Below, piece after piece: positions 33,020-63,549 of a DNA stretch of 64,000 bases (its first letter is position 1; the number at the start of each line of letters is the position of its first letter). Below the pieces are notes generated by a model, which did no database searches, was not told where the DNA came from, and was given only the letters and a program-made list of their open reading frames with translations. Origin of the DNA: Enterococcus sp. ZJ1622 (GTDB lineage Bacteria > Bacillota > Bacilli > Lactobacillales > Enterococcaceae); assembly GCF_011038845.1 (NCBI RefSeq), contig NZ_JAAKDW010000008.1, positions 62,001 through 126,000 of the forward strand. The letters run 5' to 3'. The position numbers and the translations under genes were made by a program.

Positions 33020-33277
33020 ATAAACGACATCGAAAAGAAGAGTAGCAATTAGATGTTTTTAGAGAGTCTCTGGCAGGTGGAAAGAGGCAGCAGCTAATCG
33101 TGAAACACATCTTGGAGTCGATTTTCTGAAGCATACAGTAGGGAAATCCGGGAAGCCCGTTACAGCTGCGGTCGTTGCTTGATGACCAGATAAGGTCGGT
33201 TTTTCCGTGAGGAGCCGGCAAAAAAAGGTGGAACCACGTTATTGACGTCCTTTGGTCTTCGGACCAAAGGATTTTTT
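33020..33277 (+). promoter_or_regulatory. T-box riboswitch (full, with stem I) and its terminator
   Basis: Typical stem I elements are present: AGTAGC on the 5' side, GGTGGAAAG in the distal part, and GTGAAACACATCTTGGAG on the 3' side holding the specifier. The T box AGGTGGAACCACG at 33226-33238 is followed by CGTCC and the terminator TCCTTTGGTC/GACCAAAGGA with T6 (33248-33277). The specifier is best read as CAC (33106-33108, His); ACA (Thr) one base earlier is the alternative. Uncharged tRNA binding would open the downstream ABC importer genes. Confidence 0.88.
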
Positions 33278-41071: not shown

Positions 41072-42142
41072 TTGGAAAAACAATCCATATACGGCTTGAC
41101 GAATGAAGAGTTAACAAATTGGTTTTTAGAAAACGGTGAGAAAAAATTCCGAGCTGCCCAAGTTTGGGAATGGTTGTATCAAAAGCGTGTCAGTGATTTT
41201 TCAGAAATGACGAACCTGTCCAAACAGCTGATCCAGAAACTGTCTGATCATTTTGTGATCAATCCTTTGAAGCAGATGGTGGTTCAAGAAGCTGCTGACG
41301 GGACAGTGAAATATCTGTTCGAATTACCTGACAAGAACATGATCGAAACGGTTTTGATGAGACAGGAATACGGGTTATCAGTTTGTGTGACGACACAAGT
41401 AGGATGTAACATCGGCTGTACTTTCTGTGCGAGTGGTTTATTGAAGAAAAACCGTGATCTGACCGCAGGCGAGATCGTGGCGCAAATCATGATGGTCCAG
41501 CATTATTTCGACGAACGAGGTCTAGGAGAGCGAGTTTCTCACGTCGTTGTGATGGGGATCGGCGAACCATTTGACAACTATGATAATGTAATGAATTTTC
41601 TTCATATCATCAACGATGCAAAGGGATTGGCAATCGGCGCACGTCACATCACCGTGTCAACAAGCGGTTTGGCACATAAAATCAAAGAATTCGCTAATAA
41701 CGGATTACAAGTGAACTTGGCGATTTCTTTACATGCACCGAATAATGACGTTCGAACATCGATCATGCGGATCAACCGCAGTTTCCCGATCGAAAAACTG
41801 ATGGAAGCAGTAGATGAATATCTGGAAAAGACAAATCGAAGAATCACCTTCGAATATATCATGCTGAACCAGGTGAATGACCGGCCGGAACATGCACAGC
41901 AATTAGCAGATCTCTTGAAAGATAAGAAGAAGCTTGCTTATGTGAATTTGATTCCTTACAATCCAGTGAGTGAACATGACCAGTATTCCCGCAGTCCCAA
42001 AGCCGATGTACTGAAATTCTATGATGTATTGAAGAAAAACGGCGTGAATTGCGTTATACGAAAAGAACACGGAACGGATATTGACGCAGCGTGCGGTCAG
42101 CTGCGGAGCAAACAGATGAAAAAAGAAAAAGCAGCAAGATAA
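41072..42142 (+). CDS. rlmN: 23S rRNA/tRNA (adenine-C2)-methyltransferase RlmN
   Basis: Radical SAM enzyme of 356 residues that methylates C2 of A2503 in 23S rRNA and A37 of some tRNAs. The iron-sulfur motif is [13 protein letters not shown] (CxxxCxxC); [14 protein letters not shown] is the SAM-binding GEP motif; the C-terminal cysteine is in DAACGQL. The start is a TTG at 41072 behind GAGGG. Note that this family modulates sensitivity to some ribosome inhibitors. It is followed by a repeat-associated hairpin. Confidence 0.93.
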
Positions 42143-42217
42143 AAAGGGGGGTGTGACAATAATGTTGTCACATGTCCCTTTTTTACTGCTTGATGCAGGG
42201 CAGCTTTTTCACAACCT
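42141..42217 (+). repeat. Leading hairpin plus truncated repeat unit
   Basis: AAAAAGGGGGGTGTGACAA pairs with TTGTCACATGTCCCTTTTT (42141-42184). It is followed directly by only the right arm of the AAGCTTGCATC type unit: ACTGCTTGATGCAGGGCAGC, then TTTTTCACAACC. The left arm and CGGTGTTC end are missing. It serves as terminator of rlmN. Confidence 0.75.
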
Positions 42218-42285
42218 TTTTTAAGCATTATTTTTTCGCTTTTTTCCCCCAGACTGTTAGAATAAGCAGGAATGGAGGGAAACAG

Positions 42286-42837
42286 ATGATTATCAGTGAA
42301 TTCGATCGCAACAATCCAGTTTTGAAAGATCAGCTTGCTGACTTATTGAGGTTGACTTGGCCAGAGGAATACAGTGAAGATTCTTTAAAAGCAGTTGAAG
42401 AGCTGATGAAGCCTGAACGTGTGGCTGTTTCTGCAATTGATGGGGATCAGCTTCTAGGGTTTGTCGGAGCGATTCCGCAATACGGAGTGACTGGCTGGGA
42501 GCTTCATCCTTTAGTTGTCGAAAGCTCTCGTCGAAAAAATAAAATCGGGACTCGTCTTGTGGACTATCTGGAAAAAGAAGTAGCTTCAAGAGGTGGGATC
42601 ACCTTATACTTAGGCGCAGACGACTTGGATCATGCGACAACATTAAGTCAAGCAGATCTATTTGAACATACATTTGACAAAGTAGAGGCAGTCAAAAATC
42701 TGAAAGAGCACCCTTATGAGTTTTATGAGAAATTGGGGTATAAGATCGTGGGTGTGATCCCGAATGCGAACGGTTGGGACAAACCGGACATTTGGATGGC
42801 TAAAGGAATCGTTTCCCGGCCGGAACAAATTGAATAA
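42286..42837 (+). CDS. Aminoglycoside 6'-N-acetyltransferase, AAC(6')-Ii-like
   Basis: GNAT acetyltransferase of 183 residues. Sequence blocks MIISEFDRNNPVLKDQL, AIPQYG.TGWELHPLVVES, YLEKEVASRGGIT and NANGWDKPDIWMAK match what I remember of the intrinsic AAC(6')-Ii of E. faecium, with many differences between the blocks. Relatives are chromosomal in E. durans and E. hirae. It acetylates the 6'-amino group of aminoglycosides such as tobramycin and kanamycin, giving low-level intrinsic resistance. The start is the ATG at 42286 behind GGAGGG; a frame from 42172 runs into the repeat. It has its own terminator, so it is a single-gene unit. Confidence 0.88.
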   Translation: MIISEFDRNNPVLKDQLADLLRLTWPEEYSEDSLKAVEELMKPERVAVSAIDGDQLLGFVGAIPQYGVTGWELHPLVVESSRRKNKIGTRLVDYLEKEVASRGGITLYLGADDLDHATTLSQADLFEHTFDKVEAVKNLKEHPYEFYEKLGYKIVGVIPNANGWDKPDIWMAKGIVSRPEQIE

Positions 42838-42887
42838 GGGGATTGATTCACAGGGTGAGTAAAGAGCATCTAATCATCCTTTTCTAG

Positions 42888-42933
42888 AATAAACCTGAAG
42901 AACTGTTCGTATGAACGGTTCTTCAGGTTTATT
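42888..42933. terminator. Terminator of the acetyltransferase gene
   Basis: AATAAACCTGAAGAAC/GTTC pairs with GAAC/GGTTCTTCAGGTTTATT around GTAT with one mismatch, then ATTTTATTTT. Confidence 0.85.
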
Positions 42934-42977
42934 ATTTTATTTTCTTTATTTGTGAAAGAAAATCCTTATTAAATAAA

Positions 42978-43128
42978 GAATTTTCAGAAAAAAGTACGTA
43001 ACAATTCACGAAAAAAGCATTATTTTTTGGAAAAAGAGAAAAAAAGTGTTGCTTTTTTAATAATTATTCATTAAACTCTTATACAACTTCAGAAAATATT
43101 AATTATTCTGAAAATTCCAATAAAGGGG
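42978..43128 (+). promoter_or_regulatory. oppA promoter and leader with candidate TldR target
   Basis: TTGCTT at 43049-43054 and TAAACT at 43072-43077 (17-base spacer) form a promoter. In the leader, TTCAGAA (43088) and TTCTGAA (43106) can pair. The sequence GAAAATTCC at 43110-43118 is, on the minus strand, GGAATTTTC preceded by CTTTATT; it equals the first nine bases of the candidate guide downstream of the TnpB-derived gene (50398-50406) and abuts the oppA ribosome site AAAGGGG. A 12-base inverted copy of part of it, GAATTTTCAGAA, lies at 42978-42989 upstream of the promoter. Confidence 0.55.
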
Positions 43129-43136
43129 TACAGAAA

Positions 43137-44801
43137 ATGAAAAAGAAGATGACATTTGGTTTGGTTGCAGTATGCGGCCTTGTACTTGCCGGTTGTTATG
43201 GCGGTAGTTCAGCAACAAGTAACAGTAGTTCTGCAAGTAGCGGTTCAGCAGATGGAGGTGGCGTATTCAATCTAGTTGTACCTCAAGAAATGCCGACAGC
43301 TGATCTGTCTGTAGCAACCGATACCATCAGTTTCACCGCATTGAATAACGTATATGAAGGGATCTATCGTCTGGATGAAGACAGCAAGCCTCAACCTGCA
43401 GGCGCAAGTGAGATGGCTGAAGTCAGTGAAGATGGATTAACCTATAAAGTCAAATTGAGAGAAGATGCCAAGTGGTCTAACGGCGAACCTGTGAAAGCGG
43501 CAGACTACGTATATGGCTGGCAGCGGACAGTTGATCCAGCTACAGCTTCGGAATATGCGTATCTTTTTGCTCCAGTCGTAAATGCAGAAGATATCACAGC
43601 TGGCAAGAAAGACAAATCAGAATTAGGGATCAAAGCAGTAGGCGACTACGAACTGGAAATCACGTTGAACAAACAAACTCCGTATTTCCAATACTTGCTT
43701 GCCTTTCCATCATTCTTCCCACAAAGTCAAGCTGTAGTTGAGAAGAATGGAGATGCATATGCTTCAGCAAGTGACAAAGCCGTCTACAATGGGCCATTCA
43801 CATTAGAGGACTTTGACGGACCAGGAACAGATACAGAATGGACATACAAAAAGAACGATCACTATTGGGACAAAGACACAGTGAAACTCTCAGAAATCAA
43901 GGTCAGTGTCGTCAAAGAATCCTCTACTGCATTGAATCTGTTTAAAGACGGACAAGCAGACGATGTGATCTTATCAGGTGAACTTGCTCAGCAAAATGCC
44001 AATGATCCTGCGTATACTTCCGTGAAAGAAGCACGTACAAGTTACATCGAATTCAATCAGCGTGAAAAGGATTCGCCATTCAATAACGTGAATTTGAGAA
44101 AAGCAATCTCTTATTCGATCAACCGTGAAGCTTTAGTCAAACAAGTAATGGGTGACGGTTCAGTTGTTTCGACTGGTCTGATCCCGTCAGATATGTCAAC
44201 GAATCCGGAAACGAATGAAGACTTCGCAAAAGAAGCTGGCGAATTGGTTTCCTACGACAAAGACAAAGCAAAAGAACACTGGGACAAAGCGAAAAAAGAA
44301 TTGGGAATCGATTCATTGGAATTCGATCTGATGGCTTCCGATGATGATTCAACGAAGAAAGTGATCGAATATATCCAAAACTCGATCCAGGAAAATCTAG
44401 ATGGTGTCAAGGTAAAACCTACACCAGTACCGTTCTCTGTACGTCTTGACCGCTCGACTTCTGGTGATTTCGATGCTGTATTAGGCGGATGGGGTGCAGA
44501 CTATGCAGACCCAAGCAGCTTCACTGATCTGTTTGTTACAGGGAATTCTTATAACCGAGGCCAATGGAGCAATGAAGAATACGATAAAGCGGTAGCTGCG
44601 GCTGCTTCACAAGATGCTGGCGATGAAAAAGCACGATGGGATGATTTCCAAAAAGCGAACAAGATCATTGCTGATGACATGGGCGTCGTTCCAGTTTTCC
44701 AAAAGGCTGAAGGACACTTAGTCAATGAAAAAATCAAAGGGATCGTTCACCATGCGGCTGGCGCTTCTTGGGATTACAAGTGGACTTACGTAGAAGAATA
44801 A
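43137..44801 (+). CDS. oppA: Oligopeptide-binding lipoprotein OppA
   Basis: Lipoprotein of 554 residues: lipobox LVLAGC with Cys20, a Ser/Gly-rich linker, then a family 5 solute-binding protein (QEMPTADLSVATDTISF near the start, YKVKLREDAKWSNGEPVKA, KAISYSINREALVKQVMG). It captures peptides outside the membrane for OppBCDF. It is separated from oppB by a minus-strand DUF3899 gene, so the five opp genes are not one uninterrupted strand run, and oppB has its own upstream region. The promoter region contains a candidate target for the TnpB-derived regulator encoded after oppF. Confidence 0.93.
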   Translation: MKKKMTFGLVAVCGLVLAGCYGGSSATSNSSSASSGSADGGGVFNLVVPQEMPTADLSVATDTISFTALNNVYEGIYRLDEDSKPQPAGASEMAEVSEDGLTYKVKLREDAKWSNGEPVKAADYVYGWQRTVDPATASEYAYLFAPVVNAEDITAGKKDKSELGIKAVGDYELEITLNKQTPYFQYLLAFPSFFPQSQAVVEKNGDAYASASDKAVYNGPFTLEDFDGPGTDTEWTYKKNDHYWDKDTVKLSEIKVSVVKESSTALNLFKDGQADDVILSGELAQQNANDPAYTSVKEARTSYIEFNQREKDSPFNNVNLRKAISYSINREALVKQVMGDGSVVSTGLIPSDMSTNPETNEDFAKEAGELVSYDKDKAKEHWDKAKKELGIDSLEFDLMASDDDSTKKVIEYIQNSIQENLDGVKVKPTPVPFSVRLDRSTSGDFDAVLGGWGADYADPSSFTDLFVTGNSYNRGQWSNEEYDKAVAAAASQDAGDEKARWDDFQKANKIIADDMGVVPVFQKAEGHLVNEKIKGIVHHAAGASWDYKWTYVEE

Positions 44802-44822
44802 GCGCATGAGATGAGGATGAGA

Positions 44823-44860
44823 AAAAAGGGGCTTGACAAGATCTTTGTCACGCCCCATCT
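44823..44860 (-). terminator. Minus-strand terminator of the DUF3899 gene
   Basis: On the minus strand GGGGCGTGACAAAG pairs with CTTGTCAAGCCCC, then T6. The core again carries GTGACAA...TTGTCA. It may also stop oppA readthrough. Confidence 0.75.
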
Positions 44861-44872
44861 CATACTCAACGA

Positions 44873-45217
44873 TTATAAAAAAGAAAGAAACATCAACACG
44901 ATAGAAAGAACAAGCAAGATTCCGGCAATGATCAGCCAAAAGCTGTACATACCGTAGCTAGCAGACGAGAGTGAAGAAAATTCCGGTTTTTTCTTTCGGT
45001 TTCTTGTTCGGGCTAAATGGATCGATCGTTGAAAATGATCAAAGAAACCCGAAGAAAAGACCCATAAAAATCCGCCGATAATCAAAAACGGCAGCGCGCA
45101 TAAAAATAAATCATTCGATAATTGGATCAGGGTGAATTGGTTAGTCAAACCGTTTTTCAGTAAAACGAGGAGAATCAACGCACCGGCAAATGTGTAAGGA
45201 AGAGAATTCTTTTTCAT
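44873..45217 (-). CDS. DUF3899 small membrane protein
   Basis: Protein of 114 residues with three predicted helices (about 8-22, 35-58, 90-113) and a basic RTRNRKKKP loop, matching the DUF3899 family. Function unknown. Its position inside the opp locus, on the opposite strand between oppA and oppB, is unusual for an importer operon and splits the locus transcriptionally. Confidence 0.7.
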   Translation of the reverse strand: MKKNSLPYTFAGALILLVLLKNGLTNQFTLIQLSNDLFLCALPFLIIGGFLWVFSSGFFDHFQRSIHLARTRNRKKKPEFSSLSSASYGMYSFWLIIAGILLVLSIVLMFLSFL

Positions 45218-45298
45218 TATTTTGCTCCTTTATCTTTGGTTCTTTCATTAAATGTAGCGAAACATTTGTCAGAAGTCAAAAGCTAGGGGGAAACATTC

Positions 45299-46240
45299 GT
45301 GAATAGTTATATCAAATATGTATTGAAACGTGTCTTCTTTATGGTCATCACACTATGGTTAATTGCGACCATCACTTTTTTCTTGATGCAGTTATTACCA
45401 GGCACGCCTTATACCAATCAGGAAAGATTAAGTCCTGAAACGATCGAGATGCTGAACAAGCAAGTCGGTTTGGACAAGCCAGTAATCGTACAGTACGGGA
45501 TTTATCTGTCAAACCTTCTTCAAGGAGATTTTGGTATTTCCTTCCAATTTAAAAACCAGCCAGTCGCAAACCTGCTTGCAGGAAGGGTTGGTCCTTCTTT
45601 ACAGCTAGGATTGCAGGCGATTATTTTCGGAACAGTGATCGGGACGATCTTAGGAACGATTTCTGCCATGAAGCAAAACACATGGGCAGATACTTCTTCT
45701 ACATTAGTAGCGATCTTGGGACGCTCTATCCCAAACTTTGTATTTGCGGTATTACTGCAATATATCTTTGCAATCAAATTACAAATGCTGCCTATTGCAA
45801 AATGGGATGGGTTCGCCTATACGATCTTGCCGACGATTGCGTTAGCCATGTCGCCGTTAGCAGATTCCGCACGATTCATCCGAACAGAAATGGTAGAAGT
45901 TTTACACAGTGATTATGTAGAATTAGCCAAAGCAAAAGGACTCAGCCGATGGGAGATCGCTTTCAAACATGGACTCCGAAATAGCTTGATTCCATTGATG
46001 ACGCTGTTAGGGCCACTTGCTGTCGCATTGATGACAGGTTCACTTGTTGTTGAGAATATCTTTGCGATCCCAGGTATCGGCGAACAGTTTGTCAAATCGA
46101 TCACTACCAATGATTATCCAACGATCATGGCAGTAACGATCCTTTATTCATTCATGCTGATCTTCGTGATCTTGGTAGTGGATTTACTGTACGGGTTAGT
46201 TGACCCGAGAATCCGTGTTTCAGAAGGGAGCCGAAGCTAG
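45299..46240 (+). CDS. oppB: Oligopeptide ABC permease OppB
   Basis: Permease of 313 residues with six helices, N-terminal motif ITFFLMQLLPGTPY and EAA loop (VELAKAKGLSRWEIAFKHGL). First membrane subunit of the peptide importer. Starts at GTG 45299 behind AGGGGG. Ends directly at oppC. Confidence 0.93.
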   Translation: MNSYIKYVLKRVFFMVITLWLIATITFFLMQLLPGTPYTNQERLSPETIEMLNKQVGLDKPVIVQYGIYLSNLLQGDFGISFQFKNQPVANLLAGRVGPSLQLGLQAIIFGTVIGTILGTISAMKQNTWADTSSTLVAILGRSIPNFVFAVLLQYIFAIKLQMLPIAKWDGFAYTILPTIALAMSPLADSARFIRTEMVEVLHSDYVELAKAKGLSRWEIAFKHGLRNSLIPLMTLLGPLAVALMTGSLVVENIFAIPGIGEQFVKSITTNDYPTIMAVTILYSFMLIFVILVVDLLYGLVDPRIRVSEGSRS

Positions 46241-47284
46241 ATGGAAATGATACCGAAACGTTATGAAACGATCGCAGAGATTCCAGCTGATGAGTTTCTG
46301 CCATTACAGAAGAATACGGAAGAAGAAAGAGAACAGATCACAGCTCCGTCTTTGAATTTTATCCAGGATTCATGGCGGCGCTTGAAGAAAAACAAAGCAG
46401 CAGTCATTTCGATGGTCTTACTGCTGATAATTATCTTTGTTTCGATTATCACGGTGTTTGTTTCACCACATGACCCCACTGCACAAAATGTAGCGTATAT
46501 CAATCTGCCGCCTCGTATCCCTGGGATCAACATTGATGGTCTGAATGGGAAAGCCATGGTCGGCGGCGAATTAGTCGATAAATATGCCCAAGCGAATATC
46601 CCGGCAAATGTGAACTTCTTTTTAGGGACAGATGGTTTGGGACGAGATGTATTGAGCCGATTGTTCATGGGCACGAGGATCTCACTGCTGATCGCTTTCA
46701 TCGCTGCTTTACTTGATGTGACGATTGGTGTTGCATATGGGCTGGTCTCCGGTTTATTAGGCGGACGGATCGACAATGCGATGCAGCGTTTTTTGGAAAT
46801 CTTATCTGGTATCCCCAATTTAGTCGTCATGATCTTGATGCTAGTGGTATTTGAACCAGGGATCTTCTCGATCGTAGCTGCAATGGCGATCACGAACTGG
46901 ATTCCCATGGCGCGGATCGTCCGTGCACAAACCTTGAAATTGAAAGATCAGGAATATGTATTAGCCGGGATGACCTTAGGTGAGTCGAAAATGAAGATTG
47001 CCTTCAAGCATATTTTACCGAACATCTCCAGTGTGATCATTATCCAAATGATGTTCAGTATCCCGTCAGCGATATTCTTTGAAGCCTTTTTGAGCTTTAT
47101 CGGTCTGGGTCTGACCCCACCATCTGCTTCCCTTGGAACGATGCTGAGCGAAGGATACAAAACCTTCCTGTACTTGCCGTATCTTCTATGGATTCCGGCA
47201 GTGACTTTATCGGTCATCATGATCGGCTTCAATTTGCTGGCTGACGGTTTGCGTGATGCCTTTGATCCTAAAATGAAAGAGTGA
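46241..47284 (+). CDS. oppC: Oligopeptide ABC permease OppC
   Basis: Permease of 347 residues, with a longer cytoplasmic N terminus and an external loop after helix 1 typical of OppC; GTDGLGRDVLSRLFMGTRISL and the EAA loop VLAGMTLGESKMKIAFKHIL are present. Begins on the base after the oppB stop and overlaps the oppD region, so translation is coupled. Confidence 0.93.
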   Translation: MEMIPKRYETIAEIPADEFLPLQKNTEEEREQITAPSLNFIQDSWRRLKKNKAAVISMVLLLIIIFVSIITVFVSPHDPTAQNVAYINLPPRIPGINIDGLNGKAMVGGELVDKYAQANIPANVNFFLGTDGLGRDVLSRLFMGTRISLLIAFIAALLDVTIGVAYGLVSGLLGGRIDNAMQRFLEILSGIPNLVVMILMLVVFEPGIFSIVAAMAITNWIPMARIVRAQTLKLKDQEYVLAGMTLGESKMKIAFKHILPNISSVIIIQMMFSIPSAIFFEAFLSFIGLGLTPPSASLGTMLSEGYKTFLYLPYLLWIPAVTLSVIMIGFNLLADGLRDAFDPKMKE

Positions 47285-47289
47285 GACTT

Positions 47290-48375
47290 ATGACGAAAAT
47301 TTTGGAAGTGAAAAATCTAGAAATCTCCTTTGATACGTATGCTGGAAAAGTCCGGGCGATTCGCGGTGTCAATTTTCATTTGAATAAAGGCGAAACATTA
47401 GCGATCGTAGGAGAATCCGGAAGTGGGAAGTCTGTCACGACAAGAAGTATCATGCGGCTGCTTTCAAGCAATGCCAACATCGATTCCGGTCAGATTTTAT
47501 TCAAAGGAGAAGATATCGTTGGAAAAACGGAGCGGGAAATGCAAAAGATCCGCGGAAAAGAAATCGCAATGATTTTCCAAGACCCGATGACTTCTCTGGA
47601 CCCAACGATGCCTATCGGTAAACAAGTAGCGGAGTCTCTTCGTAAACATAACAAAGTATCGAAAAAAGAGGGACAAAAGGCAGCGCTGGAACTGTTGAAA
47701 TTAGTAGGAATCCCTGAAGCAGAAAAACGGATCAACAGTTATCCGCACCAGTTTTCAGGAGGACAACGGCAGCGGATCGTGATTGCGATCGCACTTGTTT
47801 GTTATCCAGAAATCCTGATTGCTGATGAACCTACGACCGCATTGGACGTAACGATCCAAGCACAGATTCTGGAATTACTGAAAGAGATCCAAACGAAAAT
47901 CGACACTTCGATCATCTTTATCACCCATGATCTTGGCGTAGTAGCCAATGTGGCTGATCGTGTAGCTGTCATGTATGGCGGGAAGATCGTGGAGGTAGGA
48001 ACCTCAGAAGAAATCTTTTATAATCCGCAGCATCCGTACACATGGGGATTACTGGGATCGATGCCGACATTGGATAGTGCCAGCGACCGGTTATATGCGA
48101 TCCCAGGTTCTCCGCCTGACTTGTTGAATCCGCCAAAGGGTGACGCGTTTTATCCGCGAAATGAGTATGCGATGAAAATCGATGCGGAACAAGAACCGCC
48201 ATTTTTTGAATTATCGAACACACATCAAGCAGCAACTTGGCTGCTTGCACCACAAGCGCCAAAAGTAACGCCACCAGAAGAGATCCAACGCCGCTGGGCT
48301 ATTTTCAGAGAAAAACAACACCATATTTACAGCCAAGGGGGAATGATGGATGTCAAAGAAGCTACTCGAGGTTAA
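47290..48375 (+). CDS. oppD: Oligopeptide ABC ATPase OppD
   Basis: ATPase of 361 residues: Walker [13 protein letters not shown], signature [15 protein letters not shown], Walker B ILIADEPTTALD, switch THD, and the C-terminal oligo/dipeptide domain ending in a cysteine-less form (the usual CxxxC iron-sulfur positions of many OppD proteins are not seen). Start ATG at 47290; GTG at 47281 is an alternative. Its end overlaps oppF by 26 bases. Confidence 0.92.
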   Translation: MTKILEVKNLEISFDTYAGKVRAIRGVNFHLNKGETLAIVGESGSGKSVTTRSIMRLLSSNANIDSGQILFKGEDIVGKTEREMQKIRGKEIAMIFQDPMTSLDPTMPIGKQVAESLRKHNKVSKKEGQKAALELLKLVGIPEAEKRINSYPHQFSGGQRQRIVIAIALVCYPEILIADEPTTALDVTIQAQILELLKEIQTKIDTSIIFITHDLGVVANVADRVAVMYGGKIVEVGTSEEIFYNPQHPYTWGLLGSMPTLDSASDRLYAIPGSPPDLLNPPKGDAFYPRNEYAMKIDAEQEPPFFELSNTHQAATWLLAPQAPKVTPPEEIQRRWAIFREKQHHIYSQGGMMDVKEATRG

Positions 48376-49303
48376 AGGTCTGAAACAATACTTTAATGTA
48401 GGGAAAAAGAATGAAGTCCATGCAGTGAATGATATCAGCTTCCATATCTATGAAGGCGAAACATTTGGCTTAGTAGGAGAATCCGGAAGCGGAAAATCGA
48501 CAACGGGACGTACAATCATCCGATTGAATGAGCCAACAGCTGGCGAAATTTTATTCGACGGAAAAGACGTAACACAAATCAAAGGAAAACAAGAAATGAC
48601 GAAATTCCGTCATGATGTCCAAATGATTTTTCAAGATCCATATGCTTCTTTGAATCCGCGTATGAAAGTTCGTGATATCATCGCAGAAGGAATCGATGTG
48701 AATGGGTTGGCAAAGACGCCGGAAGAACGTGCCAGAAAGGTAGACGAACTGTTGAAAACAGTAGGATTGAACCCCAGTCACGGGACGCGCTATCCGCATG
48801 AATTTTCCGGAGGACAGCGGCAGAGGATCGGGATTGCCCGAGCATTGGCAGTCAAACCTCGTTTCATCATCTGTGATGAGCCAATCTCAGCATTAGATGT
48901 TTCGATCCAGGCACAAGTCGTCAATCTGCTGCAGGATCTTCAGAAACAGCATCAGCTGACGTATCTGTTCATTGCGCATGACTTGTCGATGGTCAAACAC
49001 ATCAGTGACCGGATCGGCGTGATGCACAACGGACTTTTATTAGAGATGGGCACAAGTGACGAGATTTATAATCACGGGGTTCATCCTTATACCGAAAGTT
49101 TATTGTCTGCGATCCCTTTGCCTGATCCAGATCATGAAAGACAACGCCGACGTATCAAGTATCAGCCGGAGCCGGAAGATGGACAGGTACGGACGCTTCG
49201 AGAGATCGCACCAGAACATTTTGTTTATGCAACTGAACAAGAAGTTCCTTATTACGCGAAAAAATTGAAAAAACAAAAGGAAGCCATGCTCGTTGCAAAC
49301 TAA
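48350..49303 (+). CDS. oppF: Oligopeptide ABC ATPase OppF
   Basis: ATPase of 317 residues: Walker [14 protein letters not shown], signature [15 protein letters not shown], Walker [12 protein letters not shown], switch AHD, and a C-terminal oligopeptide domain. Start ATG at 48350 inside oppD behind AAGGGGG. The TnpB-derived gene starts 24 bases after its stop, so both probably share the transcript. Confidence 0.92.
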
Positions 49304-49326
49304 GAAGTAAGTGGAGGTGAGTGATT

Positions 49327-50328
49327 ATGCTAAAAGCCTTTAGATTCCGGATATACCCGTCAGAATGTCAGAAACAATGGCTGATCCGTAATTTCGGTTG
49401 TGTCCGTTTCACGTATAATCACTTATTGCACGCACGGCAAGTCTCTTATAAAAAAACAGGTGTCATCGACTATACGCTGACACCTGCTTCGTTAAAAAAA
49501 GAATATCTTTTTTTGAAAGAAGCAGACAGCTTGGCTTTAGCCAATGCACAATTGAATCTGGATCGTGCCTTTCGGAATTATTTCAAAGGGCGTGCAGGAT
49601 TTCCCAAGCTGAAAAGCAAAAAGAACATGTGGCAATCCTATACGACAAATAATCAATCCCATACGATTTACCTGAAAGGCGATCGGTTAAAATTGCCGAA
49701 GCAAAAAGAATTGTTCAAAGTGGAGCTTCATCGGCCTGTGGAAGGGAAGATCCGTTCAGCGACCATTTCTGCCCGATACAATGAACAGTTTTATGTTTCT
49801 CTGCTCTGTGAGGTTCTGCCGGTGGATCGAACCGGTTCAAATAAAAGAATCGAAATCGCGTACGATCCTGAAAAGCTGGTCAAGACTTCTTTTCCTGTCC
49901 AGCTCCCAGTTCCTCCATTTAACCAAACCGCGAAAAGGCTTGAAATCGCAAAAAGAAAACTAGTTATCAAAGGAAAGTCGGCACAGCAGCGAAAAGAACC
50001 TGTGTATCGAGCCAAGAACTATCAAAAGCAAAAAAGAAAAGTGATGGATCTGTATCTAAAGCAAAAGTGTCAGAAAGAAGATTACTTGGAAAAGATATCT
50101 GGGCTATTTATCAGAGAATATGACTATTTGCTTGTCGAAGAGACACCGGTCCACTTAGCGTCCGCTGAATTTTCACTCCATGATTGGCATAAGCTACTGA
50201 TGAAGCTCCAGTATAAAGCAAAGTGGTATAACAAGACGGTCTGTTTGATCGATCAGAAGGATTTCTCTTCTCATTTATTGGAAAGAAGCCAAAAAAGGGA
50301 ACAGATCGGCAGATTGAGTGGTTTTTGA
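49327..50328 (+). CDS. tldR: TnpB-like nuclease-dead RNA-guided repressor (TldR, oppF-associated)
   Basis: Protein of 333 residues from the ATG at 49327, behind GGAGG. The N terminus KAFRFRIYPSECQKQWLIRNFGCVRFTYNHLL and the following helices are plainly TnpB (IS200/IS605 OrfB). The nuclease is not: the RuvC-I aspartate of the usual IDLG is A178 in RIEIAYDPEK. The RuvC-II glutamate position survives (E271 in LLVEETP). The protein stops at QIGRLSGF, where the zinc finger and RuvC-III aspartate would follow. No TnpA gene is adjacent. Directly after oppF and with these losses it fits TldR, exapted TnpB proteins that use a guide RNA to block transcription. Expected role: guided repression of the opp locus or another transporter gene. 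A decayed TnpB is the alternative, but the frame is intact and operon-linked. Confidence 0.85.
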   Translation: MLKAFRFRIYPSECQKQWLIRNFGCVRFTYNHLLHARQVSYKKTGVIDYTLTPASLKKEYLFLKEADSLALANAQLNLDRAFRNYFKGRAGFPKLKSKKNMWQSYTTNNQSHTIYLKGDRLKLPKQKELFKVELHRPVEGKIRSATISARYNEQFYVSLLCEVLPVDRTGSNKRIEIAYDPEKLVKTSFPVQLPVPPFNQTAKRLEIAKRKLVIKGKSAQQRKEPVYRAKNYQKQKRKVMDLYLKQKCQKEDYLEKISGLFIREYDYLLVEETPVHLASAEFSLHDWHKLLMKLQYKAKWYNKTVCLIDQKDFSSHLLERSQKREQIGRLSGF

Positions 50329-50413
50329 AAACAAAAAAACTGGTAGGAGCGCCAGGGATCGCCTTGTTCATAAAAAATGAATCCGTTTTTGTTTCTAGGA
50401 ATTTTCTTTTTAT
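50230..50413 (+). ncRNA. Candidate guide RNA of the TldR protein
   Basis: TnpB-type guide RNAs arise from the 3' end of the gene plus the flanking right end, with the guide last. After the stop at 50328 come a GAGCGCC/GGGATCGCC structured stretch, a hairpin TTCAT-AAAAA-ATGAA (50368-50382) and TCCGTTTTTGTTTCTA. Taking the guide from 50398 gives GGAATTTTCTTTTTAT. Its first nine bases recur in the oppA leader beside TTTAT. The 5' limit is a guess, and the scaffold/guide border is inferred from that match. A terminator follows at 50442. Confidence 0.55.
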
Positions 50414-50441
50414 AAGAAAAGCTCACTAATTATGATAAACC

Positions 50442-50565
50442 AAAAAAGGAATGACACAGGAAATCAGTATTGATTTCTTGTGTCATTCCTTTTTTCGGTT
50501 CATCAAGTTAACAGACATGATCCGTGCTTTAAGGATCGGAAGCTGAACGCCTCTGTCACAACCTT
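50442..50565 (+). repeat. Leading hairpin and degenerate repeat unit
   Basis: AAAAGGAATGACACAGGAAATCA pairs with TGATTTCTTGTGTCATTCCTTTT (50442-50492), T6 then CGG. The following stretch ends AGCTGAACGCCTCTGTCACAACCTT, very like the right end of the mini unit at 12042 (GGCTGAACATCTCTGTCACAACCTC); the rest is degenerate. The hairpin terminates the guide RNA/opp transcript; the repeat end touches the stop codon of the converging NUDIX gene. Confidence 0.6.
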
Positions 50566-51385
50566 ATTCATGATGTCCAGGCTTCAACTGATAGATCTTC
50601 GAAGGCCGACCGATTCCCACTGGCCGCTCGCCGATTTCATCGAAATACTGCAGCATCGCTTTTTTGAAATTCGAATGATCGATCGTTTTATAATCGATCC
50701 CTAAAAATTTGGCAAATACTTTCCGTGCTTCAGTGATCGTGAAATCTTTGCCTAGGACCTGCAGGACTTGTGGTTCATGTTCCATCTTATTGACCACCCG
50801 ATTGAATGCTTTGAGTATGATCTCGCTATGGTCAAAAGCCAATGTGTCCTTTCCGGAAGATTCACCTGTCAGCAAATCAAGAGAAATTGCCACATCACCG
50901 CTCGACAGATTGATCTTGTTTCCATGACGTTCTAAAGTGAACCATTGGACTTCTTTTGCGTCATCTCCTGCGATCAGCGGTTCTTCGCCAATAAACGCCA
51001 AGTAGCTCACCGTCACCACCCAGCCGCGCGGATCACGGTTGGGGGTACTGAAAGTATGAAGCTGTTCAATGTTTTCCTGAGAAATGATCACGCCTGTCTC
51101 TTCTTGTGTTTCTCGCAAGACACTTTCTCCAGTAGATTCGTTTTTCTGAACAAACCCTCCAGGCAATGCCCATGAATTCCGATATGGATGTCCTTTTCGC
51201 TGGATCAGCAGCACTTTCAGCTGATCTTCTTCTTTGTTGTAGCACATCAGTACGATATCGACAGTCAAGGAGGGTTTGTCATATTCTGGACGTTCTTGTT
51301 TTTGGTACCAAGCAAGAAAATCTTCCTCACTTGCTTCGTGCTCGTAATATAATTTTTCTTCTTCTTTAGAAGCAAATTGTTTCAT
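50564..51385 (-). CDS. NrtR-like NUDIX-domain regulator of NAD metabolism
   Basis: Protein of 273 residues. The NUDIX domain spans about 35-180 with an intact box (GGFVQKNESTGESVLRETQEETG). The C-terminal winged helix ends ERPVGIGRPSKIYQLKPG, the GRPxxxYxLKP pattern of NrtR repressors, in which the Nudix domain senses ADP-ribose. The intact box leaves a hydrolase role possible. Likely targets are NAD or niacin genes; pncA (7472) and the ECF gene (60462) are in the same window. No ribosome site problem: ATG at 51385. Confidence 0.75.
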   Translation of the reverse strand: MKQFASKEEEKLYYEHEASEEDFLAWYQKQERPEYDKPSLTVDIVLMCYNKEEDQLKVLLIQRKGHPYRNSWALPGGFVQKNESTGESVLRETQEETGVIISQENIEQLHTFSTPNRDPRGWVVTVSYLAFIGEEPLIAGDDAKEVQWFTLERHGNKINLSSGDVAISLDLLTGESSGKDTLAFDHSEIILKAFNRVVNKMEHEPQVLQVLGKDFTITEARKVFAKFLGIDYKTIDHSNFKKAMLQYFDEIGERPVGIGRPSKIYQLKPGHHE

Positions 51386-51482
51386 TTATGCCACCTCCAC
51401 TGACTTTAAAAGTACTTTTTACCTTATTGTAGCAGACTCTGGAAAAAAACCAAGAATTTGCATGAAAAAGCGGTGCATTCAC

Positions 51483-51767
51483 TTAGATATGGAACAAGAA
51501 AGGCAGAATCAAATTAAATAAGAAGAAAAGCAGATAAAACGGCAGGATTTTCAATCTTTCTTCACGGATGGCATAAAAACCGCAGATGATGATATACGCA
51601 TCAATGGCAAACCGAAAAAGTCGAGCCGCCAGTAAAAAACTGCTTAAGCTGCCAGTCAAATTAAAATATCCGTACATTCTTACATAAAAATAGCTGAATA
51701 ATAAATGTAGTAAAGAAAGCAGCGCGATACTGATCGTAAAAAACAAATGTTTCTTTTGCATGAGCAT
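51483..51767 (-). CDS. Small membrane protein of unknown function
   Basis: About 94 residues with three hydrophobic stretches, starting from the ATG at 51767 (AAAGGA upstream; ATG at 51761 is also possible). The longer frame to 51923 runs across the metG promoter region and is unlikely. Not recognised; divergent from metG. Confidence 0.5.
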   Translation of the reverse strand: MLMQKKHLFFTISIALLSLLHLLFSYFYVRMYGYFNLTGSLSSFLLAARLFRFAIDAYIIICGFYAIREERLKILPFYLLFFLFNLILPFLFHI

Positions 51768-51930
51768 TCCAGTCCTTTTAATAAAATAGATAGTTCTCAT
51801 TATAACATGTTTCCGATGAAAAAAATCAAGGAGTAGGCAATCAGTTTCAATCGTGAGATTCGAAAAAAAGCCAACAGCCAATCCGTTTTGTGGTATACTA
51901 GCAAGGAAACGAATTCGCATCATGCGATAA

Positions 51931-53955
<2,025 letters not shown>

Positions 53956-53963
53956 AATCGAAA

Positions 53964-54127
53964 GAAAGGGATTGTGACAAAAGTCTTGTCACAGTCCCTT
54001 TTTTCGAATAAATGGTGTTCCAACTGCTGCTTCTCGGCAATAAGTTCACTGAACAAGAAAATATGAGGAGATATTTTCTGTTCAGTATCCTTATTCCTTA
54101 AAGCAGAACGCAGTTGTCACAACCTCT
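53964..54127 (+). repeat. Leading hairpin plus one complete repeat unit
   Basis: AAAGGGATTGTGACAA pairs with TTGTCACAGTCCCTTT (53967-54004), then CGAATAAA and one complete unit of the AACTGC/GCAGTT type (54011-54127). Its inner stem is TTCACTGAACA and AAAATA against TATTTTC and TGTTCAGT. This is the simplest full element in the window and also terminates metG. Confidence 0.85.
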
Positions 54128-54139
54128 TTTTGATTCCTG

Positions 54140-54412
54140 TCAATTGCCCCAGTGAGGATTATGGAAGCCAATCATATAATAAAGACACATATAACTATAT
54201 AAAATGTATCCTAGAAAAAGGAGTACGACCTTTATCCAACGAGGAAATCTATAGCTTCCTAAAAACAAAAGAAAAAGCGGCTGTGAATAGTTGAATAAAA
54301 TATTTGTGACCCTTTCACTTGTCTGCCAATTAAGAAAAAGGCTGATAGGGATCGTAAAGACAGAAAGAAGCAGCATAATGAGAAGTGGACGAGCGGTTTT
54401 TAAGTGATTCAT
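54140..54412 (-). CDS. Small membrane protein, possibly paired with the next secreted protein
   Basis: Protein of 90 residues with three predicted helices (about 9-27, 41-53, 58-82). Not recognised. It lies 29 bases after the secreted protein gene on the same strand; small size and membrane location would fit an immunity or partner protein, but this is speculation. Confidence 0.5.
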   Translation of the reverse strand: MNHLKTARPLLIMLLLSVFTIPISLFLNWQTSERVTNILFNYSQPLFLLFLGSYRFPRWIKVVLLFLGYILYSYMCLYYMIGFHNPHWGN

Positions 54413-54441
54413 CTGGTACTCCTTTTTATTTATTCAAAAGA

Positions 54442-55059
54442 TCACACTGTTGCTTGAGTCGTGCTGTTTATATTATTAATAGGAAAGTGTGCACTAACAG
54501 TCATACGCGCTCCACCAGCAGATCGTCCTCTATTGATCCATAGCTTTATATCTCCAGCTCCTTGGTCTAACCTAGAAGCCAATAAACTAGATCCAAAAAA
54601 TCCAACTACAGCACCTAAAACACCACCAATCATTGCTCCATATAAAATTCCGTTTAATCTAAACCCCATAGCATTCAATCCTAAAGAATTTCTAACATTC
54701 GCTAAGCCATTCCTTGAAGTTGCATAGACATTGTATCCACCATTTACAAGTCTTTCGGACCAACCAGAACCAGATCGAGTTGTATAAGTAACTTCAGCTC
54801 CATCATATTTCAACATAATATTTGTCATTATTTCTTCAGATGATACCGTTTTTGATTGCATAGCAATTCTAAAATTCGCACTATTTAGTTCTTTATCCAA
54901 TGCTAACATCTTTTCGTTAACTTCAACTTTAGTTATTTCTAACTCACTGACCGGTGTGGCTACTTCACTAGCATAGGTTAAAGGAGTAAAAAAATAATTC
55001 AGTGTTAAAAAGAATATAATTGTACAAATGTTGACTGCTTTTTTCAAATAACTCTCCAT
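54442..55059 (-). CDS. Secreted protein with glycine-zipper segment
   Basis: Protein of 205 residues: signal peptide to about residue 30 (cleavage near TYASEVA), a helical stretch, a Thr/Ser/Gly region, then a glycine-zipper membrane helix GAMIGGVLGAVVGFFGSSLL (about 143-162) and a beta-rich tail. Not recognised. The zipper helix suggests oligomerisation in or on a membrane. Codon use is AT-rich compared with metG and tatD. It sits beside a small membrane protein and an XRE-type regulator, as in some bacteriocin-like clusters, but lacks known bacteriocin motifs. Confidence 0.5.
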   Translation of the reverse strand: MESYLKKAVNICTIIFFLTLNYFFTPLTYASEVATPVSELEITKVEVNEKMLALDKELNSANFRIAMQSKTVSSEEIMTNIMLKYDGAEVTYTTRSGSGWSERLVNGGYNVYATSRNGLANVRNSLGLNAMGFRLNGILYGAMIGGVLGAVVGFFGSSLLASRLDQGAGDIKLWINRGRSAGGARMTVSAHFPINNINSTTQATV

Positions 55060-55299
55060 CCTTTCGTTTTCACAAAACTTAAAATCTTAACAATAAAAAT
55101 TCGTCAACCTCCTTTCTACTGTCATGTTCTACTAAAAGTAGAGATTTTAAAAGAACCAATTTGTTTACATAGCGTTTACATCTGCCGTAGCGTTACTTGC
55201 GCTACCTTGGATCTCCATCATTTATTTTAAAAATATTGTTATTAAATAGGTTTTTCAAATCATTATATGTATAATTTAAAATAAAAAGGAGAAGTGCCA

Positions 55300-55797
55300 A
55301 TGAGTTTAGGACAGCGACTTAAGTTCATCCGAGAAAGAGAAAATTATTCACAAAGAGAAATCGCAGAAAAATTAGGCATCTCTAGGCAATCCATATCAAA
55401 ATGGGAAAACGATCGTGGGTTCCCTGACTATGATAATTTATTAAAACTCAGTAGTTTGTTGAATGTCTCGATTGCTGAATTATTGGAGAATGAAACACTT
55501 CCTCGAACAAAAAAATTAATATCAGAAGTATGTGACAAGGAAAGAACGATGACAATAGAAGTTTCTAATGGAAAAAAAATCTTGATTGAAGATTGCCAGA
55601 TTCTTCTATTTTTATCCGTGCTAAGCTGCGTCGTATTTCCTACTGGATTTATTGTTGTACCTTACGTCTTACATGAAATCGAAAGGATAGATCGGTACTA
55701 TGGATTAACTGTGTTGATTTGTGTTGGTTCTTTACTGGTCAATTTATATTATGCTTATTTTCACGTTACTTTTTTCTTAGATCTTATTCTCTTATAA
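55300..55797 (+). CDS. XRE-family regulator with two membrane helices
   Basis: Protein of 165 residues. Residues 1-60 are a Cro/C1 helix-turn-helix (QREIAEKLGISRQSISKWEN), followed by a short linker and two hydrophobic helices at about 103-125 and 137-163. Membrane-bound XRE regulators of this kind often sense a peptide or envelope state. The start is the ATG at 55300 behind AAGGAG; GTG at 55294 is too close. It diverges from the secreted protein gene, its likely target. Ends at a terminator. Confidence 0.72.
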   Translation: MSLGQRLKFIRERENYSQREIAEKLGISRQSISKWENDRGFPDYDNLLKLSSLLNVSIAELLENETLPRTKKLISEVCDKERTMTIEVSNGKKILIEDCQILLFLSVLSCVVFPTGFIVVPYVLHEIERIDRYYGLTVLICVGSLLVNLYYAYFHVTFFLDLILL

Positions 55798-55805
55798 AGA
55801 ATAAT

Positions 55806-55843
55806 AAAAACAATCGCCGTAGAATTGGCGATTGTTCTCTTCT
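55806..55843. terminator. Terminator
   Basis: AAAACAATCGCC pairs with GGCGATTGTTCT, between converging genes. Confidence 0.75.
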
Positions 55844-55861
55844 TTGACACATAAAAGCTGG

Positions 55862-56449
55862 TCAATTGTTTTTATGATATACCTTTAGTTTCGTTTTCAA
55901 CCGACTTGGTAGAAGTGCTGTGAGTAGAGCAAACGGAATGGAAAAAACGTACCAGAAAATCGTTCGTCCAATACCATAACGCTGATACAGTTTCGTCAGC
56001 ATCACATGAAGCAAGACCAAACCTAACAGCAATGCCCCAGCAGAAAACCAGACATTATCCCAATGAACGAACTGACGAAGGATCATCACGCCTACCGGAT
56101 AAAAGTAAAAATAGATTCCAACTAACGTCATCCGCCAATTCTTGGTAAATGTTCCGATATTCAGCAAAAAGAATATAGCAGAAAGCAAAATCCCAATCGG
56201 CGGGAAAAGTCCTACTAGAAAGGAATAGAGCATCCCCCAGAAAATCATGACAGGACCTTTGATCACTGCGACAACTGCGATAAAAAGTGTGACTAAGATC
56301 AGCTGTTGAGAAAAAGTCGCAACAGTGAGTAAACCAAATAAAATCAGCGTCAGCCAGTGCCAGCGGGATTGCTGCTGCTCTTTGCGGGAGATATCGACTC
56401 GTTTCGTCAATAAATCGGCTAATTTTGGATAATTATGTTTGAAATCCAT
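55862..56449 (-). CDS. Multispanning membrane protein of unknown function
   Basis: Protein of 195 residues with a short basic N-terminal cytoplasmic part and about six helices (WLTLILFGLLTVATF onward). No motif recognised. AAGGAGGA lies before its ATG. Single gene between converging XRE and diverging permease genes. Confidence 0.55.
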   Translation of the reverse strand: MDFKHNYPKLADLLTKRVDISRKEQQQSRWHWLTLILFGLLTVATFSQQLILVTLFIAVVAVIKGPVMIFWGMLYSFLVGLFPPIGILLSAIFFLLNIGTFTKNWRMTLVGIYFYFYPVGVMILRQFVHWDNVWFSAGALLLGLVLLHVMLTKLYQRYGIGRTIFWYVFSIPFALLTALLPSRLKTKLKVYHKNN

Positions 56450-63423: not shown

Positions 63424-63451
63424 TCATCTGGGAATTGTTTCCCAAAATAAA

Positions 63452-63549
63452 TCAGAGTAGGAAATAAAGCGTTAAGTGCTGAGAGGATGGGATGTTGCCT
63501 CTCGGACGAAGGACAAATTGTTCGCGGTTTTATTTTCGCATTCGCTGCA
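63452..63549 (+). promoter_or_regulatory. Tetrahydrofolate (THF) riboswitch
   Basis: The conserved THF-riboswitch elements occur in order: CAGAGTAGGAAATAAAGC, GTTAAGTGC, GATGGGATGTTGCC, GGACGAAGGAC, TTCGCGGTT and TTCGCATTCGCTGC. AGAGTA at the 5' end and the GC-rich 3' end form the closing stem. A small GCTGC/GCAGC hairpin follows before the ribosome site, suggesting translational control of folT by folate. Confidence 0.88.

Follow-up and report, generated by a model that had tools for sequence, protein, structure and literature searches.

What does a TnpB homologue that has lost its nuclease residues do at the end of a peptide-uptake operon? The question is raised by a 64,000-nucleotide stretch of the Enterococcus sp. 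ZJ1622 genome (contig NZ_JAAKDW010000008.1, positions 62,001 to 126,000; hereafter the window), in which the gene tldR (49327-50328, + strand) follows oppF. An original prediction, made from the sequence alone, had assigned the gene to the TldR-type RNA-guided repressors. This identity is upheld here: a dead RuvC site, linkage to oppF, a structured guide RNA and a guide match in the oppA promoter are all seen. The gene belongs to the oppF-associated TldRs, a group described in 2024, and we consider it very probable that its product is a TnpB exapted as an RNA-guided factor which exerts feedback repression on oppABCDF-tldR. The guide, its target and the likely further targets go beyond what had been predicted.

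The tldR protein and its RuvC site

The open frame (49321/49327-50328, + strand) encodes 333 amino acids and begins 23 nucleotides (nt) past the oppF stop codon, on the same strand, as foreseen. Homology to TnpB over the N-terminal and central parts, also foreseen, is confirmed by profile, sequence and fold comparisons. The protein matches the NCBIfam family guided_TnpB with an E value of 2e-36, above the family cut-off, and IS200_TnpB with 5e-63, yet below the cut-off of that family. A sequence search matched the structures of ISDra2 TnpB (E 6e-27), which is likewise the top Foldseek match (E 2e-22) of the AlphaFold2 model (mean predicted local distance difference test score 87.5, predicted template modelling score 0.59). 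The TnpBs of IS200/IS605 elements (ISDra2; L015 and L021 of the genus) are the best sequence and fold matches overall.

For the nuclease site itself, four TnpBs from the same genus, all with an intact triad, were used in an alignment. In place of their RuvC-I aspartate (IGIDLG) the protein has Ala178 (IEIAYD), and this alanine is unchanged across 13 orthologues of the genus. The RuvC-II glutamate is still present (E271) and is the sole residue of the Asp-Glu-Asp (DED) triad left. Furthermore, the protein ends ahead of the CxxC...DRDxNAS segment which carries the zinc finger and the third (RuvC-III) aspartate; both the Ala178 substitution and the early end had been read correctly from the sequence. 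The full DED triad and zinc finger of an active TnpB are absent. In contrast to IS200/IS605 TnpBs, which have the RuvC-I aspartate, RuvC-III and the zinc finger, tldR lies outside any transposon context, in conserved synteny and with a guide that is invariant across species. No tnpA was found among the open reading frames of 42000-56000, in line with the prediction. Of the observations that had been named as contradicting the TldR assignment, among them a complete triad and flanking transposon ends, none was found.

The enterococcal oppF-associated TldR group, with the opp promoter as its target, was reportedly described by Wiegand et al. in Nature in 2024. The features shared with that group, as reported, are a nuclease-dead TnpB 3′ of oppF, a downstream guide RNA and a match in the opp promoter; no difference excludes membership, the RuvC-II glutamate being retained in the present protein.

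At a threshold of E ≤ 1e-70, orthologues occur in 13 of 15 genomes of the genus and in 52 of the 106 Enterococcaceae genomes searched, and 58 tldR loci were retrieved for comparison. The gene stands 3′ of oppABCDF in most of them; in five loci it lies beside another opp system, whose OppA is about 25% identical. An intact frame, as foreseen, is kept in about 50 species, a retention far beyond chance. A scan of genome contigs with the window protein as query gave no match; the hits of an alignment-based scan were mainly other TnpBs, whose triad is intact in those checked. A TGA interrupts the tldR frame in locus L096, which still has an intact guide RNA and oppA target. Second TldR-like copies are present in L086 (E. 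lemanii) and L089 (E. alcedinis), with no guide-RNA cassette downstream.

The guide RNA and its match in the oppA promoter

A conserved cassette follows tldR on its 3′ side in 56 of the 58 loci. It reads AACTGG...CCAGGG(A/T)TCGCC...hairpin...GTTTCTAGGAA...CAC-TAATTAT; in the window, the scaffold occupies 50338-50426 (+ strand) and ends in GCTCAC. The hairpin comprises 5-8 pairs in 53 sequences, and its variable positions show compensatory changes (A-U, G-C, C-G, U-A). RNAalifold recovered the first stem only, the hairpin of variable length having emerged by direct counting, and single-sequence folding of 50250-50412 gave no structure signal (z 0.85).

The scaffold end was placed by means of active TnpB relatives (L274-L285), in which the scaffold ends in ...AGTTCAC and the bases that follow differ between loci, as expected for transposon flanks. 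We therefore set the start of the guide at 50427. The TTCAC that precedes the guide in IS200/IS605 TnpB RNAs is a further likeness to that family. The first seven bases of the guide, the seed TAATTAT (50427-50433, + strand), are invariant in 56 loci, and the next few are variable. The remaining guide or 3′ tail (GATAAACC, 50434-50441, + strand) has a conserved AACC-like end and is followed by an intrinsic terminator (50445-50492, + strand) with a 20-pair stem and a T tract. An initial guide candidate, GGAATTTTC (50398), matched against 43110-43118, was dropped because it is a scaffold stem, conserved within the genus, and its supposed target is variable.

The seed is matched upstream of oppA (43137-44801, + strand), which encodes a peptide-binding lipoprotein and is the predicted regulated gene. 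Its promoter, on the + strand, comprises a putative -35 hexamer TTGCTT (43049-43054) and a putative -10 hexamer TAAACT (43072-43077), separated by 17 nt; the -35 assignment follows from the conserved TTG hexamer and the spacing, this element being too weak for a consensus scan. The sequence TTTAATAATTAT (43056-43067) lies within the spacer and consists of the target-adjacent motif TTTAA (43056-43060, + strand), shared by all 45 canonical opp loci, and the target TAATTAT (43061-43067, + strand), which agrees with the guide over 7 nt. TTTAATAATTA stands at equal spacing to both hexamers in every one of the 45 loci whose oppA is canonical (the -35 spacing does not include L072, where the contig ends before the -35). 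Among the 48 sites in canonical loci, the seed match is 7 nt in 33 and 6 nt in 15. The 12-mer TTTAA plus TAATTAT has four copies in the 3.02 Mb of the window's genome. In the five loci with the different opp system, the site is antisense and upstream of the -35, as an exact 12-mer in L073 and with a 6-nt seed match in L079, L082, L088 and L090. Five loci of genus g4 (L081, L083, L091, L092, L097) carry a second TTTAATAATTA site, antisense, between oppA and oppB.

Genomes without tldR serve as natural controls. The congener G003 has other DNA in the space between oppF and nrtR; its oppA promoter retains TTGCTT, the 17-nt spacing and TAAACT, and the site is changed to TTTTAGAAATAT. In genus g3, the site is present in the sole tldR-bearing genome (L070), and none of the nine tldR-less genomes with a close oppA has it. 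In three genomes (G036, G038, G040), tldR and its RNA have their usual gene neighbours, and no canonical oppA was found.

Proposed mechanism and its alternatives

We propose the following course of events. The gene is probably co-transcribed with oppABCDF, and its protein would associate with the guide RNA from directly past the gene. Together they would read TTTAA and then open the DNA where it agrees with the 7-nt seed TAATTAT. Bound there, the complex would exclude RNA polymerase from the oppA promoter without cutting, as is expected because the -35/-10 spacer is filled by the site. Since the targeted operon carries tldR and its RNA at its own 3′ end, the outcome would be a negative feedback loop which caps peptide uptake. 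A strong terminator lies past the guide, and none was found in the oppF-tldR interval; thus, the promoter that tldR and the RNA would silence is probably the one from which both are transcribed.

A phage flagellin TldR is among the closest known systems. In an Enterobacter prophage, a nuclease-dead TnpB encoded beside fliC represses a promoter with its guide RNA and targets the host flagellin, and a 6-nt guide is sufficient (PMC13418256). Unlike this flagellin TldR, the present gene is chromosomal and lies within an opp operon.

Several observations weigh against the proposed mechanism. The guide agrees with the target over just 6-7 nt, and the site is A+T-rich, which is common for sequence within a promoter, where it lies. 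With a seed that is the same throughout, no covariation of guide and target is seen. The AACC-like tail (50434-50441 and its counterparts in the 56 loci) is conserved and does not pair with the oppA target. Many 12-mers outside the oppA promoter have unrelated neighbours. Lastly, the exact TTTAATAATTAT stands by an oppA homologue, antisense and 66-72 nt upstream of the start of the oppA match, in eight g13/g2 genomes (L131, L134, L143-L148) that have no TldR at E ≤ 1e-70; either a diverged TldR or another cause of conservation could account for these sites.

These points bear on three other explanations. If TTTAATAATTAT were kept merely as promoter spacer, or for another regulator, the seed match would be coincidental, as its A+T-rich promoter setting and its occurrence in the eight genomes without a close TldR would allow. 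However, the tldR-less congener keeps hexamers and spacing and loses the site, and the g3 genomes with and without tldR show the same contrast. The rarity of the 12-mer argues in the same direction, as does a site near dtpT (described below) which tracks the presence of tldR at varied distances and orientations. We regard coincidence as quite improbable. That tldR is a decaying TnpB remnant, a functionless transposon passenger, appears highly improbable: the loss of nuclease residues and C-terminus, the broken frame of L096 and the two extra copies without an RNA cassette would suit such decay, but frame, synteny and RNA seed are retained over about 50 species in several genera, and Ala178 is fixed in the genus.

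An RNA-guided TldR could also activate or fine-tune opp transcription. The dtpT site, some 160 nt from the start codon, is compatible with this, as overlap with the core promoter is not required there. At oppA, however, the site takes up the -35/-10 spacer, so that polymerase should be shut out once the complex is bound, and the flagellin TldR is a repressor (PMC13418256). Activation or fine-tuning is therefore quite improbable, and repression of the oppA promoter by TldR and its guide RNA is the reading we retain.

Candidate targets in trans and neighbouring features

The guide RNA would probably also act in trans on other importers of peptides and amino acids. A second 12-mer of the window's genome lies upstream of dtpT, which encodes a di/tripeptide transporter. 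The exact 12-mer is found there, at a nearly fixed position roughly 160 nt ahead of the start codon, in 12 of the 13 tldR-bearing genomes of the genus; the exception is G014, where the seed is altered. It is absent from all ten tldR-less genomes compared (the congeners G003 and G009 and eight genomes of other genera with dtpT). At differing distances and orientations, a site upstream of dtpT also occurs in g4 (one genome of seven, G041), in g5 (three genomes of four) and in three genomes of g6 (an 11-mer in one of them); no such 12-mer was found upstream of dtpT in g8, g9, g10 and g17. By shuffling, the chance of a 12-mer is about 0.0003-0.01 per 400-nt region. We consider dtpT the best-supported target in trans, and a probable one.

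Further candidates were picked post hoc from a genome-wide listing of 12-mers. Recurrent intergenic sites lie upstream of a YjeM-like permease gene (antisense in three g1 genomes, sense in g4 and g10), of an oppD-like gene of a second opp system, opp2 (g4 and g8), and of a gene for an opp2-type binding protein (g1 and g4). In G036 and G038, sites are located just past the -10 of amino-acid transporter genes with a lysine riboswitch. As a control, the reversed 12-mer has 41 sites in the retrieved regions. Of the 26 genes that start close to these, 20 were scanned against Pfam, and no importer of peptides or amino acids was recognised among them. Fisher tests on a transporter panel were not used as evidence, the panel having been built partly from target sites. 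Shared sites in coding genes (a livH-like gene in g5/g6 and a near-identical region in L179, L247 and L349) were set aside as targets, since they can be due to conservation of the protein or to mobility. In g5/g6 (L237, L238, L241, L242, L360, L363, L367), the 12-mer within the livH-like gene lies 56-67 nt before the next permease gene.

From these sequence comparisons, a regulon for peptide and amino-acid uptake, controlled in trans, is likely. We lean slightly towards its fullest form, in which one repressor with a 7-nt seed acts on oppABCDF, dtpT, the second opp system, the YjeM-like permease and the lysine-riboswitch transporters, targets shift while the guide is frozen, and tldR outlives even its cognate opp operon. 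With target 12-mers gained and lost under an unchanging guide, the guide would then resemble the fixed recognition motif of a transcription factor. We know of no mention of dtpT or the other trans targets in the 2024 work on oppF-associated TldRs, and the wider target set may be new. A described, little-explored family thereby becomes a regulon open to testing: its guide is frozen, its seed is defined, its target promoters are named, and relatives that lack the gene exist in nature. Should the trans targets hold, an exapted transposon nuclease would be a conserved regulator of enterococcal peptide and amino-acid uptake.

Additional features complete the picture of the locus. Downstream of the oppA promoter, TTCTGAAAATTCC (43106-43118, + strand) is presumably a CodY-like box; such boxes at oppA and dtpT suggest an overlap with nutritional control. 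The genes oppB, oppC, oppD and oppF occupy 45299-49303 (+ strand), and the gap between oppA and oppB holds, in antisense, a gene for a predicted membrane protein of 114 amino acids (44873-45217, minus strand). Elsewhere in the window, Rfam matches mark an ordinary T-box leader (33021-33255) and an equally ordinary tetrahydrofolate (THF) riboswitch (63451-63549).
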